Source: Allobosea sp. TND4EK4
GTDB taxonomy: Bacteria; Pseudomonadota; Alphaproteobacteria; Rhizobiales; Beijerinckiaceae
Length of the DNA stretch: 64,000 nucleotides
NCBI RefSeq assembly: GCF_900156025.1
Contig: NZ_FTMO01000001.1
Location: 806,001-870,000, forward strand
Direction: 5' to 3'
The notes under the pieces are model-generated. The model saw nothing but the letters and a program-made list of their open reading frames with translations, did no database searches and was not told the DNA's origin. The translations under genes were made by a program, and so were the position numbers. Shown here in pieces: positions 50,674 to 54,731 of the stretch (positions within the stretch are counted from its first letter, which is position 1; every line of letters begins with the position of its first letter).

Positions 50674-50687
50674 GAGGCGCACCTCGC

Positions 50688-50793
50688 GTCATTGCGAGGA
50701 GCAAAGCGACGAAGCAATCCAGGGGCAAAGGCGTCGACGCCTCACCCGGTTCTCCTGGATTGGTTCGTCCCTGCGCTTCTCGCAAGGACGATG
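50688..50793. repeat. Intergenic inverted repeat of a second family
   Basis: GTCATTGCGAGGAGCAAAGC followed by GACGAAGCAATCCAGG pairs imperfectly with CCTGGATTGGTTCGTC and CTTCTCGCAAGGACGATGA about 40 bases later. Long imperfect palindromes built on ATTGCGAGGAGC / GCAATCCAGG are a recurring repeat type in Hyphomicrobiales genomes (from memory). It differs in sequence from the CCCGAGAAT family. It lies between two convergent genes and could act as a bidirectional terminator. Confidence 0.7.
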
Positions 50794-50800
50794 AAGTGCC

Positions 50801-51295
50801 TTAACCGCGCCCCAGCTTGCCAAATCGCTTCACCACCCTCTCCCGCTTCAGCCGCGACAGGCGGTCGATCCAGAAGATTCCGTCGAGCTGGTCGATTTCG
50901 TGCTGGTGGCAGATGGCGCGGAAGCCTTCTGCTTCTTCCGTCTGCGGCGTGCCATCCAGATCGCAATAGGCGATTTTCACGCGCGCCGGCCGCTCGATCT
51001 CCTCGGTGACGCCGGGCATCGAAACGCTGCCCTCGGCATGGCGGATCGTCTCCGTCGACGCCTCCAGCACCACCGGGTTGACGTAGACCGCGACCTCGCC
51101 GGGTGTCAGCTCCAGCACGACGATGCGCAGCGGCACGCCGACATGCGGCGCGGTGATGCCGAGGCCGGGCGCGGCGCGCATGGTGTCGAGCAGATCTTGC
51201 GCGAGCGCCCTCAGATCCGCGTCGAAGCTGGTGACGGCTTGAGCCGCCAGGCGCAGACGCGGATCGGGGAAGCGGACGATCGGCCGGATGGCCAT
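50801..51295 (-). CDS. Peptide deformylase paralogue with degenerate active site
   Basis: This 164-residue protein has the deformylase fold and length, but all three signature motifs are altered. Motif 1 reads GLGITAPH (normally GxGLAAxQ; Gln becomes His51). Motif 2 is EGSVS (normally EGCLS; the metal-ligand Cys becomes Ser90). Motif 3 is HEIDQ (normally HExDH; the second metal His becomes Gln136). Only His132 and the catalytic Glu133 remain, so normal metal-dependent deformylation is doubtful. Start codon ATG with MAIRPIVRFPDPRLR. It is the last gene of the minus-strand beta-oxidation cluster, 11 bases after the FadB/J-like gene. A canonical def must exist elsewhere. Confidence 0.85.
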   Translation of the reverse strand: MAIRPIVRFPDPRLRLAAQAVTSFDADLRALAQDLLDTMRAAPGLGITAPHVGVPLRIVVLELTPGEVAVYVNPVVLEASTETIRHAEGSVSMPGVTEEIERPARVKIAYCDLDGTPQTEEAEGFRAICHQHEIDQLDGIFWIDRLSRLKRERVVKRFGKLGRG

Positions 51296-51306: not shown

Positions 51307-53511
51307 TCAGGCCGCTGCCTTCTTCTCCGCCGCGCCGTAGAAGCTCTCGCCGGTCTTGGCCATGCGCTTCAGCAGCCGGTTCGGCTTGAAGCGCTCGCCA
51401 TGGCGCTTGGCCAGCTTCTCGCAGAGCTTCACGAAGGCCGCCGCGCCCATATTGTCGATATAGGAGAGCGTGCCTCCCGAATACGGCGCGAAGCCGAAAC
51501 CAATGATCGAGCCGACATCGGCCTCGCGCGGATCGGTGACGACGCCTTCCTCATAGGTCTTCGCGGCTTCCAGCGCCTGGGTGACGAGCAGGCGCTGCTT
51601 CAGCTCTTCCATATCGACGAGTTCGGGGGCGAGCCGGCCTCCCACAATGTCGGCGAGGCCCGGCCAGAGCCGTTTCGGCCCGGACTCCGGGTAATCGTAG
51701 AAGCCCTTGCGGTTCTTGCGGCCGAGGCGGCCATTCGTCTCGACCATCTCGGTGAGCAGCTTCTCCTGGGCCGGATCGATGGCGCCCGGCCCGAGCTGGG
51801 CCTTCGTCGCCTTGACGATCCTGAGGGCCAGGTCGATCGCCACCTCGTCGTTGAGCGAGAGCGGGCCGACCGGCATGCCGGCCTGCTTGCCGGCGGCCTC
51901 GATCATCGCCGGCGGCACGCCTTCCATCAGCATCAGATGGCCTTCGCGGAGATAATTGCCGACGCAGCGATTGGCATAGAAGCCGCGGGTGTCGTTGACG
52001 ACGATCGGCGTCTTCTTGATCGCGCGGACATAGTCCAGCGCCATGGCGAGGGCCTTCTTGCCGGTCTTCTTGGCCATGATGACCTCGACCAGCAGCATCT
52101 TCTCGACGGGCGAGAAGAAGTGGATGCCGATGAAGTTCTTCGGTCGCAGGCTCGTCTCGGCGAGGCCTGTGATCGGCAGCGTCGAGGTGTTGGAGCCGAA
52201 GATGGTCTTCGGGCCGACCGCGGCTTCCACCTGGGCGATCACCTCAGCCTTGACCTTCGGATCCTCGAAGACCGCCTCGACGATCAGGTCGCAGCCCTTG
52301 AGGTCGGCATAGTCGGCCGTGGCCTTGATGCGCGCGAGGAGCGCGTCGCGGTCGGCGGTCTTGGCGCGGCCCTTCATGATCTGGTCGGAGACCAGCTTGT
52401 GGGAATAGGCCTTGCCCTTCTCGGCCGCCTCGACGTCGCGGTCGATCAGCACGACCTCGAGCCCGGCGAGCGCGGTGACATAGGCGATGCCGGCACCCAT
52501 GAAACCGGCGCCGACGACGCCGACCTTCTTGAGCTTGGATGGCGGAACGTCGGTCGGACGACGGGCGCCCTTGTTGAGCTCCTGCATCGAGACGAAGAGC
52601 GAGCGGATCATCGAGGCCGCCTCCTTCGTCCGCAGGATCTTGGCGAAGTAGCGGCTCTCGACCTTCAGCGCGAGGTCGATCGGCAGCTGCAGCCCCTCAT
52701 AGACCGCCGAGAGGATGGCGCGAGCCGCCGGGTAATTGTCGTTCGTCTCGCGGCGGTAGATCGCATTGGCCGGCGGCCAGATCTGCATGCCGGCCGGGGA
52801 ATGCACCTTGTTGGAGGGCAGCTTGAAGCCCTTCTGGTCCCAGGGCTGCGTTGCCTGCGGGTTAGCCTTGAGCCAGTCCCTGGCGTTCTGGACGATGTCG
52901 GCGCGGGGCGCGACTGCATGGACGAGGCCTGAGTTGCGCGCCGGCAGCGACTTCACCTGCTCGCCCTTGAACATCATCTGGAGCGCGTCACCGGTCTGCA
53001 TCAGGCGCGAGACGCGTTGCGTGCCGCCGGCGCCGGGGAACAGCCCGACCTTGATCTCCGGCAGGCCGACGCGCGTCGAGGCATCGTCCGAAACGACGCG
53101 GTACTGGCAGGCGAGGGAGAGTTCGAAGGCGCCGCCGAGGCAGACGCCGTGGATCGCGGCGGCGAACGGCTTCCCGCAGGTCTCGAGCTTGCGGTAGAGC
53201 AGCGAGAGCTTGCGGCTCTCGTCGAAGAAGCTCTGCAGCGCGACCTGCTCGCCCTTCTCCTTCGCCAGCTTCACATAAAGATCGCGCAGGCCCTGGAGCA
53301 TGGTCAGGTCGGCACCGCCGGAGAAGCTCTCCTTGCCGGAGGTGATGACGCAGCCCTTGATGGCCTCGTCCGCCACGACGGCGTCGATGATCTGGTCGAG
53401 TTCGCCCATCACCTCGGGGGTGATGACGTTCATCGAGCGGCCGGGCATGTCCCAGGTCGCGACGGCAATGCCGTCGGCATCGGTCTCGAAGCGGAAATTG
53501 GTGAGGTTCAT
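51307..53511 (-). CDS. Fatty acid oxidation multifunctional protein (enoyl-CoA hydratase/3-hydroxyacyl-CoA dehydrogenase)
   Basis: This 734-residue FadB/FadJ-type enzyme has an N-terminal crotonase domain with the oxyanion segment ESFSGGADLTML and catalytic region GLPEIKVGLFPGAGGTQR. The middle NAD-binding domain is KVGVVGAGFMGAGIAYVTAL, with IHFFSPVEKMLLVEVI. The C-terminal dehydrogenase domain contains FYANRCVGNYLREGHLML and ends near FKPNRLLKRMAKTG. ATG 53511 is chosen because GAGGAG lies seven bases upstream; ATG 53517 is too close to it. It follows the thiolase gene by 11 bases, forming the classical two-gene beta-oxidation unit. Confidence 0.95.
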   Translation of the reverse strand: MNLTNFRFETDADGIAVATWDMPGRSMNVITPEVMGELDQIIDAVVADEAIKGCVITSGKESFSGGADLTMLQGLRDLYVKLAKEKGEQVALQSFFDESRKLSLLYRKLETCGKPFAAAIHGVCLGGAFELSLACQYRVVSDDASTRVGLPEIKVGLFPGAGGTQRVSRLMQTGDALQMMFKGEQVKSLPARNSGLVHAVAPRADIVQNARDWLKANPQATQPWDQKGFKLPSNKVHSPAGMQIWPPANAIYRRETNDNYPAARAILSAVYEGLQLPIDLALKVESRYFAKILRTKEAASMIRSLFVSMQELNKGARRPTDVPPSKLKKVGVVGAGFMGAGIAYVTALAGLEVVLIDRDVEAAEKGKAYSHKLVSDQIMKGRAKTADRDALLARIKATADYADLKGCDLIVEAVFEDPKVKAEVIAQVEAAVGPKTIFGSNTSTLPITGLAETSLRPKNFIGIHFFSPVEKMLLVEVIMAKKTGKKALAMALDYVRAIKKTPIVVNDTRGFYANRCVGNYLREGHLMLMEGVPPAMIEAAGKQAGMPVGPLSLNDEVAIDLALRIVKATKAQLGPGAIDPAQEKLLTEMVETNGRLGRKNRKGFYDYPESGPKRLWPGLADIVGGRLAPELVDMEELKQRLLVTQALEAAKTYEEGVVTDPREADVGSIIGFGFAPYSGGTLSYIDNMGAAAFVKLCEKLAKRHGERFKPNRLLKRMAKTGESFYGAAEKKAAA

Positions 53512-53522
53512 CGTCATTCTCC

Positions 53523-54731
53523 TCAAACCCGCTCGATGATGGTGGCGACGCCCATGCCGACCGCGACGCAGAGCGTCACCAGCGCGGTCTGCTTGTCCTG
53601 CCGCTCCAGCTCGTCGAGCACCGTGCCGAGCACCATGGCGCCGGTGGCCCCGAGCGGGTGGCCCATCGCAATGGCCCCACCGTTGACGTTGAGAACGTCG
53701 TCGTCGATGTCGAAGGCCTGCTGGTAGCGCAGCACGACGGACGAGAAGGCTTCGTTCAGCTCGAACAGGTCGATATCCTTCTTCGACATGCCGGCTTTCC
53801 GCAAGACGAGCTCGGTGACGTCGACCGGGCCGGTCAGCATCAGCGCAAGGTCGGAGCCGATCGTGGCGAAGGCCCTGATTCGGGCGCGGGGCTTCAGGCC
53901 CGCCGCCTTTCCGGCCTTCTTCGAGCCCACGAGCACGGCGGCCGCGCCATCGACGATCCCGGAGGAATTGCCGGCGTGGTGGACGTGATTGATGAACTCC
54001 ACATCCGGATGCGCCGCCGTCGCCACCGCATCGAAGCCGCCCATCTCGCCCATCTGGACGAAGGAGGGCTTGAGCGCTGCGAGCGTCTGCATGTCCGTGT
54101 TCGGCCGGATCGTCTCGTCGCGGTCGAGAATGGTCAGACCGTTGACGTCGGTAACCGGGATGACAGAGCGCTTGAAACGCCCCTCCTGCCAGGCCCTGGC
54201 GGCGCGCTGGTGCGAGCGCACGGCGACGGCGTCGACATCATCGCGCGAGAAGCCGTATTTCGTCGCGATCAGATCCGCCGAGATGCCCTGCGGCATGAAA
54301 TAGGTGTCGATGGCGACCGACGGATCGACCGCGATTCCGAAGCCGGAGGCGCCCATGCCGACGCGGGACATCGACTCAACACCGCCGCCGATCGCCATCT
54401 CCTTCTGGCCGGACATGACCTGCGCGGCGGCGAGGTTCACCGCATCGAGGCCCGAGGCGCAGAAGCGGTTGATCTGCACGCCTGGCACCTCGTGGCCGTA
54501 GCCGGCCTTGAGCGCGACCGTGCGGGCGATATCGGCCGCCGCCTCGCCGACGGGATCGACACAGCCCAGCACCACGTCCTCGACGAGGAGCGGATCGAGG
54601 TCGTTGCGCTCCCTGATCGCGCGCAGCGCCTGGGTGCCGAGCTCGATGGCCGTGACCTCGTGCAGCGAGCCGTCGGCCTTGCCCTTGCCGCGCGGCGTGC
54701 GGACATGGTCGTAGATGAATGCGTCTGCCAT
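53523..54731 (-). CDS. Acetyl-CoA acyltransferase (thiolase)
   Basis: This 402-residue thiolase cleaves 3-ketoacyl-CoA. The acyl-accepting cysteine is in QINRFCASGLDAVNLAA, and the catalytic His in GGAIAMGHPLGATGAMV. The base cysteine is in VTLCVAVGMGVA, where the usual CxG reads CVA, a small deviation from CVGGGMG. The length and the FadJ-type neighbour indicate a degradative FadA/FadI-like role rather than a biosynthetic one. It follows the acyl-CoA dehydrogenase gene by 87 bases, a gap that holds short CAGTCGGCAGT-like repeats. Confidence 0.95.
   Translation of the reverse strand: MADAFIYDHVRTPRGKGKADGSLHEVTAIELGTQALRAIRERNDLDPLLVEDVVLGCVDPVGEAAADIARTVALKAGYGHEVPGVQINRFCASGLDAVNLAAAQVMSGQKEMAIGGGVESMSRVGMGASGFGIAVDPSVAIDTYFMPQGISADLIATKYGFSRDDVDAVAVRSHQRAARAWQEGRFKRSVIPVTDVNGLTILDRDETIRPNTDMQTLAALKPSFVQMGEMGGFDAVATAAHPDVEFINHVHHAGNSSGIVDGAAAVLVGSKKAGKAAGLKPRARIRAFATIGSDLALMLTGPVDVTELVLRKAGMSKKDIDLFELNEAFSSVVLRYQQAFDIDDDVLNVNGGAIAMGHPLGATGAMVLGTVLDELERQDKQTALVTLCVAVGMGVATIIERV

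Follow-up and report, generated by a model that had tools for sequence, protein, structure and literature searches.

The gene considered here lies on the minus strand of the window, by which is meant the whole stretch of 64,000 nucleotides that was analyzed, and encodes an altered protein of the peptide deformylase (PDF) fold that was given the working name PDFX. The relevant features of the locus, in coordinates of the window, are these:

50801..51295, minus strand: the PDFX gene, encoding the altered deformylase-fold protein, with its ATG at 51295 and its TAA at 50803-50801, 164 amino acids.
51143..51145, minus strand: codon 51, His (CAT); Gln in canonical PDF (Gln50 of Escherichia coli), His in 121 of 121 clade rows and Gln in 90 of 90 others.
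51026..51028, minus strand: codon 90, Ser (AGC); the metal ligand Cys90 in canonical PDF, Ser in 121 of 121 clade rows.
50897..50902, minus strand: codons 132-133, His-Glu; the sole remaining classical metal ligand and the catalytic Glu, present in 121 of 121 clade rows.
50888..50890, minus strand: codon 136, Gln (CAG); the metal ligand His136 in canonical PDF, Gln in 121 of 121 clade rows and His in 90 of 90 others.
50807..50854, minus strand: C-terminal helix in the AlphaFold2 model, residues 148-163, with the equivalents of the ribosome contacts of E. coli PDF.
51307..53526, minus strand: FadJ-type multifunctional beta-oxidation gene, directly upstream of PDFX across an 11-base gap; a neighbour only in the nearest relatives of the window.

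Reading of the minus-strand open reading frame found zero internal stops. The product matched the Pfam profile PF01327 (Pep_deformylase) at full length, over profile positions 1-155 of 156 with 151 bits, and scored 268 bits against the NCBIfam model NF009484, whose cut-off is 190. Motif I of PDFX is GLGITAPH where canonical PDF has GxGxAAxQ, motif II is EGSVS in place of EGCLS, and motif III is QHEIDQ in place of QHExDH. The canonical combination of a motif I ending in Gln, EGCLS and HExxH is therefore absent from PDFX, as it is from all 121 aligned rows of the same type; two metal ligands are lost, and the general-base Glu133 and His132 are retained in every one of these rows. A preliminary description, made from the letters of the window, had reported the changes from Gln to His at position 51, Cys to Ser at 90 and His to Gln at 136, an intact chain, and a FadJ-type gene 11 bases away. 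Motif reading confirmed the three substitutions with His132 and Glu133 kept, and the 164-residue frame without an internal stop and the coordinates of the open reading frames agreed with the rest.

Relatives were collected in several ways. A contig scan with peptide patterns taken from the window protein, and so biased to the PDFX type, retained 80 loci out of 277 relatives, and motif III was HE-x-D-Q in all 80. These named loci were pooled with loci from profile searches, which are unbiased in this respect, and from paralogue searches to give an alignment of 211 distinct PDF rows. Active-site types in this alignment numbered 121 of H/S/HE/Q and 90 of Q/C/HE/H, with no mixed type (an earlier alignment of 180 rows had divided into 112 of PDFX type and 68 of canonical type). 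The H/S/HE/Q type was also read in 18 further congeneric loci, using patterns that left the three residues free and fixed the rest of the motifs, and in the S. meliloti copy. No row with just one or two of the three changes was seen among the 211 distinct rows or the 18 further congeneric loci; sequences were fetched for part of the profile matches, so that low-scoring intermediates could be missed. Additional residues mark the clade, namely Met93 (120 of 121 rows) and Gly95, Phe141 and Trp142 (each 121 of 121), and His51 is the only new invariant residue among His, Cys, Asp and Glu. For a tree, the 121 and 90 rows were thinned to 41 of PDFX and 68 others; in it the PDFX clade lay on one side of a branch with a stem length of 0.79 and an SH-aLRT support of 100; the support was 91 when the active-site columns were left out. 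These data place the origin of PDFX in a single divergence from PDFs of Alphaproteobacterial type, and it now has a patchy distribution across many families of the class, with many soil bacteria among its carriers.

The codons at invariant sites vary synonymously, with Ser90 written as AGC, AGT, TCG or TCT and thereby drawn from both the AGY and the TCN families. Pairwise dN/dS (NG86) among 20 Bosea-type loci had a median of 0.26 and a maximum of 0.59 over 190 non-independent pairs. The corresponding median for the neighbouring fadJ gene was 0.19 over 171 pairs, and PDFX is thus the somewhat faster-evolving of the two (omega of 0.26 vs 0.19). The preliminary description had proposed a paralogue alignment for Ser90 and Gln136 and a codon-level test of selection as checks, and had named random substitution at these positions as the sign of decay. 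Both residues proved to be conserved in 121 of 121 clade rows with random substitutions absent, and dN/dS below 1 indicated purifying selection on PDFX. Fixed substitutions, synonymous codon change and dN/dS below 1 together describe a maintained protein, and as judged from the alignment a pattern shared by 121 of 121 members lies far beyond chance. That PDFX is a decaying def duplicate carrying chance substitutions is scarcely credible: broken copies do exist, three Mesorhizobium plasmid copies being split across two reading frames, yet an omega that stays within a maximum of 0.59 and a single clade spread over many families speak against it, and decay is refuted as a general account because all 121 rows share one active-site type without intermediates. 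Other apparent signs of damage were considered and rejected. The copies in genomes G182 and G407, at first only partial profile matches, were full-length and without a stop in a second search over a longer stretch, and an internal stop in the G820 copy was the ordinary end of the gene.

The preliminary description had further placed PDFX in a beta-oxidation operon and suggested a role in lipid metabolism, perhaps involving acyl or formyl groups. The open reading frame of the FadJ-type gene encodes enoyl-CoA hydratase and 3-hydroxyacyl-CoA dehydrogenase domains and is preceded by thiolase and acyl-CoA dehydrogenase genes; downstream, PDFX meets a convergent class-III aminotransferase gene. The adjacency is real in the window but is not conserved. 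A fadJ gene was present near PDFX in 19 of the 80 loci, nine of them having it at 7-16 bases, three at 137-446 bases and seven at 1.9-3.2 kb, the last with other open reading frames between fadJ and PDFX. Eighteen of the 19 are titled Bosea, Boseaceae or Rhizobiales bacterium, and one is a bin titled Methylobacterium. In the other 61 loci no fadJ was found within up to 5 kb on each side (less at contig ends), and the neighbours of PDFX there differ by genus. A scan covering 27 neighbours in fadJ-less loci, together with three loci already counted as long-range fadJ, returned AraC, ABC transporter, glyoxalase, homoserine O-succinyltransferase, ROK, asparaginase II, SIR2, MerR, amidohydrolase, MFS and TetR genes. 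Because no fadJ was found in these 61 of 80 loci and the neighbours vary, PDFX is not a beta-oxidation protein in general. The close spacing of fadJ in nine loci (11 bases in the window) would suit a protein that serves beta-oxidation, as enzyme or partner, through an acyl or formyl group, as would an Ancylobacter locus, L023, with an upstream 3-hydroxyacyl-CoA dehydrogenase/thioesterase gene, to whose cluster a gene in L042 also belongs. Such a role is nevertheless very unlikely given the loci without fadJ, the distance of 1.9-3.2 kb in seven of the 19 with it, the assortment of neighbours elsewhere, and a conserved ribosome-contact helix, considered below, that points to nascent chains rather than to lipids.

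Between the PDFX and aminotransferase genes lies an imperfect inverted repeat (50687-50790) with 37-nt arms, 84% complementary, and a 30-nt spacer. It has 51 matches in the genome, itself included, of which many are partial and several represent both strands of one place, and it is a dispersed palindrome of the REP/BIME-like kind. A palindrome search found no upstream signal common to many genera among the PDFX loci. The most frequent palindromes (CTACC-N8-GGTAG, ACATC-N3-GATGT and GCCGA-N5-TCGGC) were confined to Bradyrhizobium loci, and CGGCC-N11-GGCCG occurred in three Gluconacetobacter loci and one Bradyrhizobium locus. Eight Bradyrhizobium loci (L027, L031, L032, L033, L034, L038, L040 and L041) have CTACC-N8-GGTAG 49-53 bases ahead of the PDFX start, and in the two of these that were scanned, L031 and L033, a TetR-type gene is transcribed divergently from PDFX. 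This palindrome and the divergent TetR-type gene suggest ligand-controlled expression of PDFX in these Bradyrhizobium loci only. A promoter scan around the PDFX gene found no promoter of the sigma-70 type, and one terminator-like site on the opposite strand near PDFX was within chance.

Of 150 genomes from the order, 16 had a clear PDFX member (NF009484, at least 230 bits). The class gave 10 among 289 genomes (a purpose-built profile, at least 210 bits), with two more probable when a longer stretch was taken, and the phylum sample gave 24 among 398, all 24 from the window's own order; the window's genome is included in each count. Within the genus of that genome the gene is present in 55 of 67 genomes and missing from 12. 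None of the nine genomes of at most 3.9 Mb has it, and 55 of the 58 genomes of at least 4.3 Mb do. Named carriers include Bosea, Bradyrhizobium, Ancylobacter, Microvirga, Mesorhizobium, Gluconacetobacter and one member of the Burkholderiaceae (Chitinasiproducens). When 15 family labels, including an 'unassigned' one that covers 14 rows, are mapped on the tree for the 80 named loci, 29 changes are needed where the minimum is 14, an excess that hints at transfer of PDFX without proving it. PDFX was carried at 60-80% identity by 10 of 883 matching plasmid records, and pSymB of S. meliloti carries a PDFX-type copy with 58% identity. An association study of nodulation in S. meliloti listed COG0242 among functions tied to competition, the deformylase gene being unspecified in the available text (PMC8407117), and the listing was given no weight here. 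Three Mesorhizobium plasmid copies from Oxytropis nodules (L180, L181 and L182) are those split between two reading frames, and the copy in L182 is also interrupted by an IS1380 transposase gene. The PDFX gene is dispensable, since 12 of the 67 genomes of the genus are without it and three Mesorhizobium plasmid copies are broken. Viral contigs gave 23 pattern matches to PDFX, none of which was confirmed, and phage records reached at most 42% identity among the matches listed (the best 15 of 156).

A second, canonical PDF generally accompanies PDFX. The window's genome has one other PDF, with the motifs GIGLAAIQ/EGCLS/QHEIDH, located beside fmt on contig G000:C20. All 25 carrier genomes sampled (two identified as carriers by profile only) have a PDF of canonical type alongside PDFX, as do all 12 genomes examined behind the named loci, one genome being shared between the two sets. 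In the genus, a second PDF match was present in 54 of 55 PDFX carriers. The exception, G845 (98% completeness), has PDFX but gave no match to a canonical PDF and no full match to fmt. It was considered as a genome living on PDFX alone and set aside, no inference being drawn from it: because the full fmt match is missing too, the absence of def-fmt is probably an assembly gap, a loss of formylation being possible. Among the sampled carriers no genome was found that certainly relies on PDFX alone.

The C-terminal helix of PDFX was compared with that of E. coli PDF, in which residues L149, K150, R153, K157, K160 and R163 are described as touching uL22 and 23S rRNA (PMC12690207; here and below, as given in the accessible part of its text). 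The window protein has L149, K150, R153, R157, K160 and R163 at these positions. Across the clade, L149, K/R150, K/R157 and K/R160 are each found in 121 of 121 rows, R153 in 120 (with Lys in one) and K/R163 in 102, so that the helix characteristic of ribosome-associated PDFs is present in PDFX at the level of residues. Among 79 canonical rows R153 occurs in 43, and the remaining contact positions are nearly always kept. A different result was obtained for 11 other accessory PDFs from Alphaproteobacteria and Chitinasiproducens (L172-L176, L220-L224 and L227), in which all catalytic residues are kept (Q/C/HE/H intact) and most ribosome contacts are lost: L149 was found in seven, K/R150 in one, R153 in none, K/R157 in one, K/R160 in three and K/R163 in none. 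By these counts the other accessory PDFs have retained the chemistry without the dock, the reverse of PDFX. PDFX would accordingly be expected, from its residues, to dock at the ribosome exit beside uL22 as canonical PDF does, and probably takes the formyl-Met N-termini of nascent chains. The uL22 of the window's genome apparently has Gln at the position of E. coli Glu52, the residue touched by Arg153 of E. coli PDF; the contact of PDFX with the ribosome may therefore be weaker.

Ile44 and Leu125 are named as PDF substrate-pocket residues in the available text of PMC4964514. At the position of E. coli Ile44, PDFX has I/V/L45 in 121 of 121 rows, followed by Gly46 in 121 of 121; Cys129 is found in 117 of 121, and residue 125 is Leu in 89 of 121, Phe in 30 and Trp in two. 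The pocket for the formyl-Met side chain is thus largely kept. The AlphaFold2 model of PDFX has a mean pLDDT of 96 and a helix at 148-163, and its nearest structure is the P. aeruginosa PDF 1s17, with a TM score of 0.94 and 43% identity. The PDFX profile also scored best, at 178 bits, with P. aeruginosa PDF among solved structures, and no entry from the PDFX clade was recognised among the 34 matches listed.

Set against canonical PDF of the E. coli and P. aeruginosa kind, PDFX shares the whole fold, Glu133, His132, most of the Met pocket and the C-terminal contact helix. It differs in Gln50 to His, Cys90 to Ser and His136 to Gln, in Met93, Gly95, Phe141 and Trp142, in its accessory status, and in neighbourhoods other than def-fmt. 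The majority of bacterial PDFs are of type 1B (PMC5591237), and the updated motifs of PMC12690207 are reported there for 80% of PDFs from bacteria. Type 3 PDFs are described from archaea and trypanosomatids and as second copies in S. aureus and S. pneumoniae, with some reported to be weakly active or inactive (PMC12690207 and the available text of PMC5591237). PDFX resembles type 3 in having substitutions in motifs I and II; it differs in that motif III is changed too, outside the definition in PMC12690207 as far as its accessible text goes, and in keeping the long C-terminal helix. In the tree PDFX stands beside Alphaproteobacterial PDFs, the tree being one without archaeal, trypanosomatid or Gram-positive type 3 sequences. 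Accessory, mobile second PDFs are also known in Vibrio Def2, which gives reduced susceptibility to actinonin, and in the integron-borne PDFs; Vibrio Def2, however, keeps all three catalytic motifs and has lost the ribosome contact Arg153, the opposite of PDFX (PMC12690207).

Annotation does not separate the two kinds. NF009484 (PRK12846.1-5, 'peptide deformylase', an equivalog) has PDFX members as its best scorers in the order sample, with up to 286 bits, and its name implies an active deformylase, yet its cut-off also admits canonical copies (L099-L106, with EGCLS/HExDH), so two PDF kinds are named alike. A full-text search of the open-access literature, in which subscription journals are mostly uncovered, found no description of the PDFX clade, and the accessible main text of PMC12690207 contained no mention of the H/S/Q active-site type. 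Since the NCBI model groups them as peptide deformylase, PDFX sequences are already known, with their altered site apparently undiscussed.

The preliminary description had left PDFX as either a maintained pseudoenzyme or an enzyme with new chemistry. Maintenance of the protein was borne out, and the sequence is compatible with both alternatives. Our preference, held tentatively and with a little less than even confidence, is that PDFX may be a ribosome-docked accessory protein of the PDF fold that acts on formyl-Met chains and is still a hydrolase, with a re-plumbed, thiol-free site. A working hydrolase is favoured because Glu133 is untouched. The changes of Gln to His at 51 and of His to Gln at 136 constitute a reciprocal exchange between motifs I and III. 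The Gln of canonical motif I contacts the formyl group and water. In the proposed site, the catalytic metal would be held, or water polarised, by His51 together with His132. Glu133 would remain the general base, Gln136 would make the contact formerly made by Gln50, and Ser90 would stand in place of the oxidisable thiolate. A hydrolase in which the roles of two residues have been exchanged is less certain than the predicted docking at the ribosome and the predicted formyl-Met substrate.

This arrangement could give the cell a thiol-free back-up deformylase for conditions in which the Fe-Cys enzyme fails, such as peroxide, nitric oxide, zinc or chelating inhibitors. Peroxide attack on PDF oxidises the iron and the cysteine ligand (available text of PMC10751367), and Cys90 of canonical PDF is a site of modification by NO (PMC7683392, in the part accessible). 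The more specific proposal, an active N-terminal deformylase (or other hydrolase of N-terminal groups) that is thiol-free, ribosome-docked and tolerant of these agents, is plausible and is put forward with slightly greater reserve. According to the accessible part of PMC7683392, Cys90 of Salmonella PDF binds the metal and is stated to be required for activity, and a C90S substitution alone abolished the rescue of zinc-stressed cells. Ser90 and Gln136 therefore cannot simply replace the old site.

The same C90S result, which shows canonical PDF disabled by one of the changes found in PDFX (PMC7683392), would also fit a ribosome-docked pseudoenzyme that binds the exit site and holds formyl-Met ends but leaves the formyl group in place. 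Such a protein might compete with canonical PDF, methionine aminopeptidase or trigger factor and so tune deformylation or the formyl-Met degradation signal. This account would fit the absence of two of the three metal ligands from all 121 rows, the retention of the ribosome contacts and of most of the pocket, and the presence of a canonical PDF alongside PDFX in the sampled genomes. Invariance alone would equally fit a conserved binder. On the other hand, the pocket is no more invariant than Glu133 and His132, residues that only chemistry requires, the reciprocal Gln/His exchange resembles re-design more than loss, and an invariant Glu133 counts for an enzyme because a mere binder would not need the catalytic Glu. 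The pseudoenzyme is accordingly considered somewhat unlikely, and a working hydrolase with a changed site somewhat likelier than a dead protein.

Serine chemistry offers a further possibility, in which Ser90 would be the nucleophile and His132 or His51 the base of a metal-free acyl-hydrolase or acyl-transferase of N-terminal groups. The conservation of Ser90 across both serine codon families and the invariance of His132, His51 and Glu133 are consistent with it. Ser is, however, also the plainest replacement for Cys, and we know of no precedent for a serine acyl-hydrolase or transferase in the PDF fold; this mechanism seems improbable.

Peptide deformylase, which trims the beginning of newly made proteins, is an essential enzyme and an antibiotic target, and its mechanism has been tied to a Cys-His-His metal site. 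Automatic annotation gives the name peptide deformylase to proteins without two of the metal ligands, which bears on counts of accessory PDFs. The PDFX clade makes two ideas testable, deformylation by this fold without the thiolate site and the regulation of formyl-Met processing by a ribosome-bound relative of deformylase, and the PDFX-type copy of S. meliloti means that a tractable laboratory organism carries it. If the active, thiol-free reading is true, the PDF fold would have solved deformylation twice, the second time in PDFX, which would have spread as an accessory gene.
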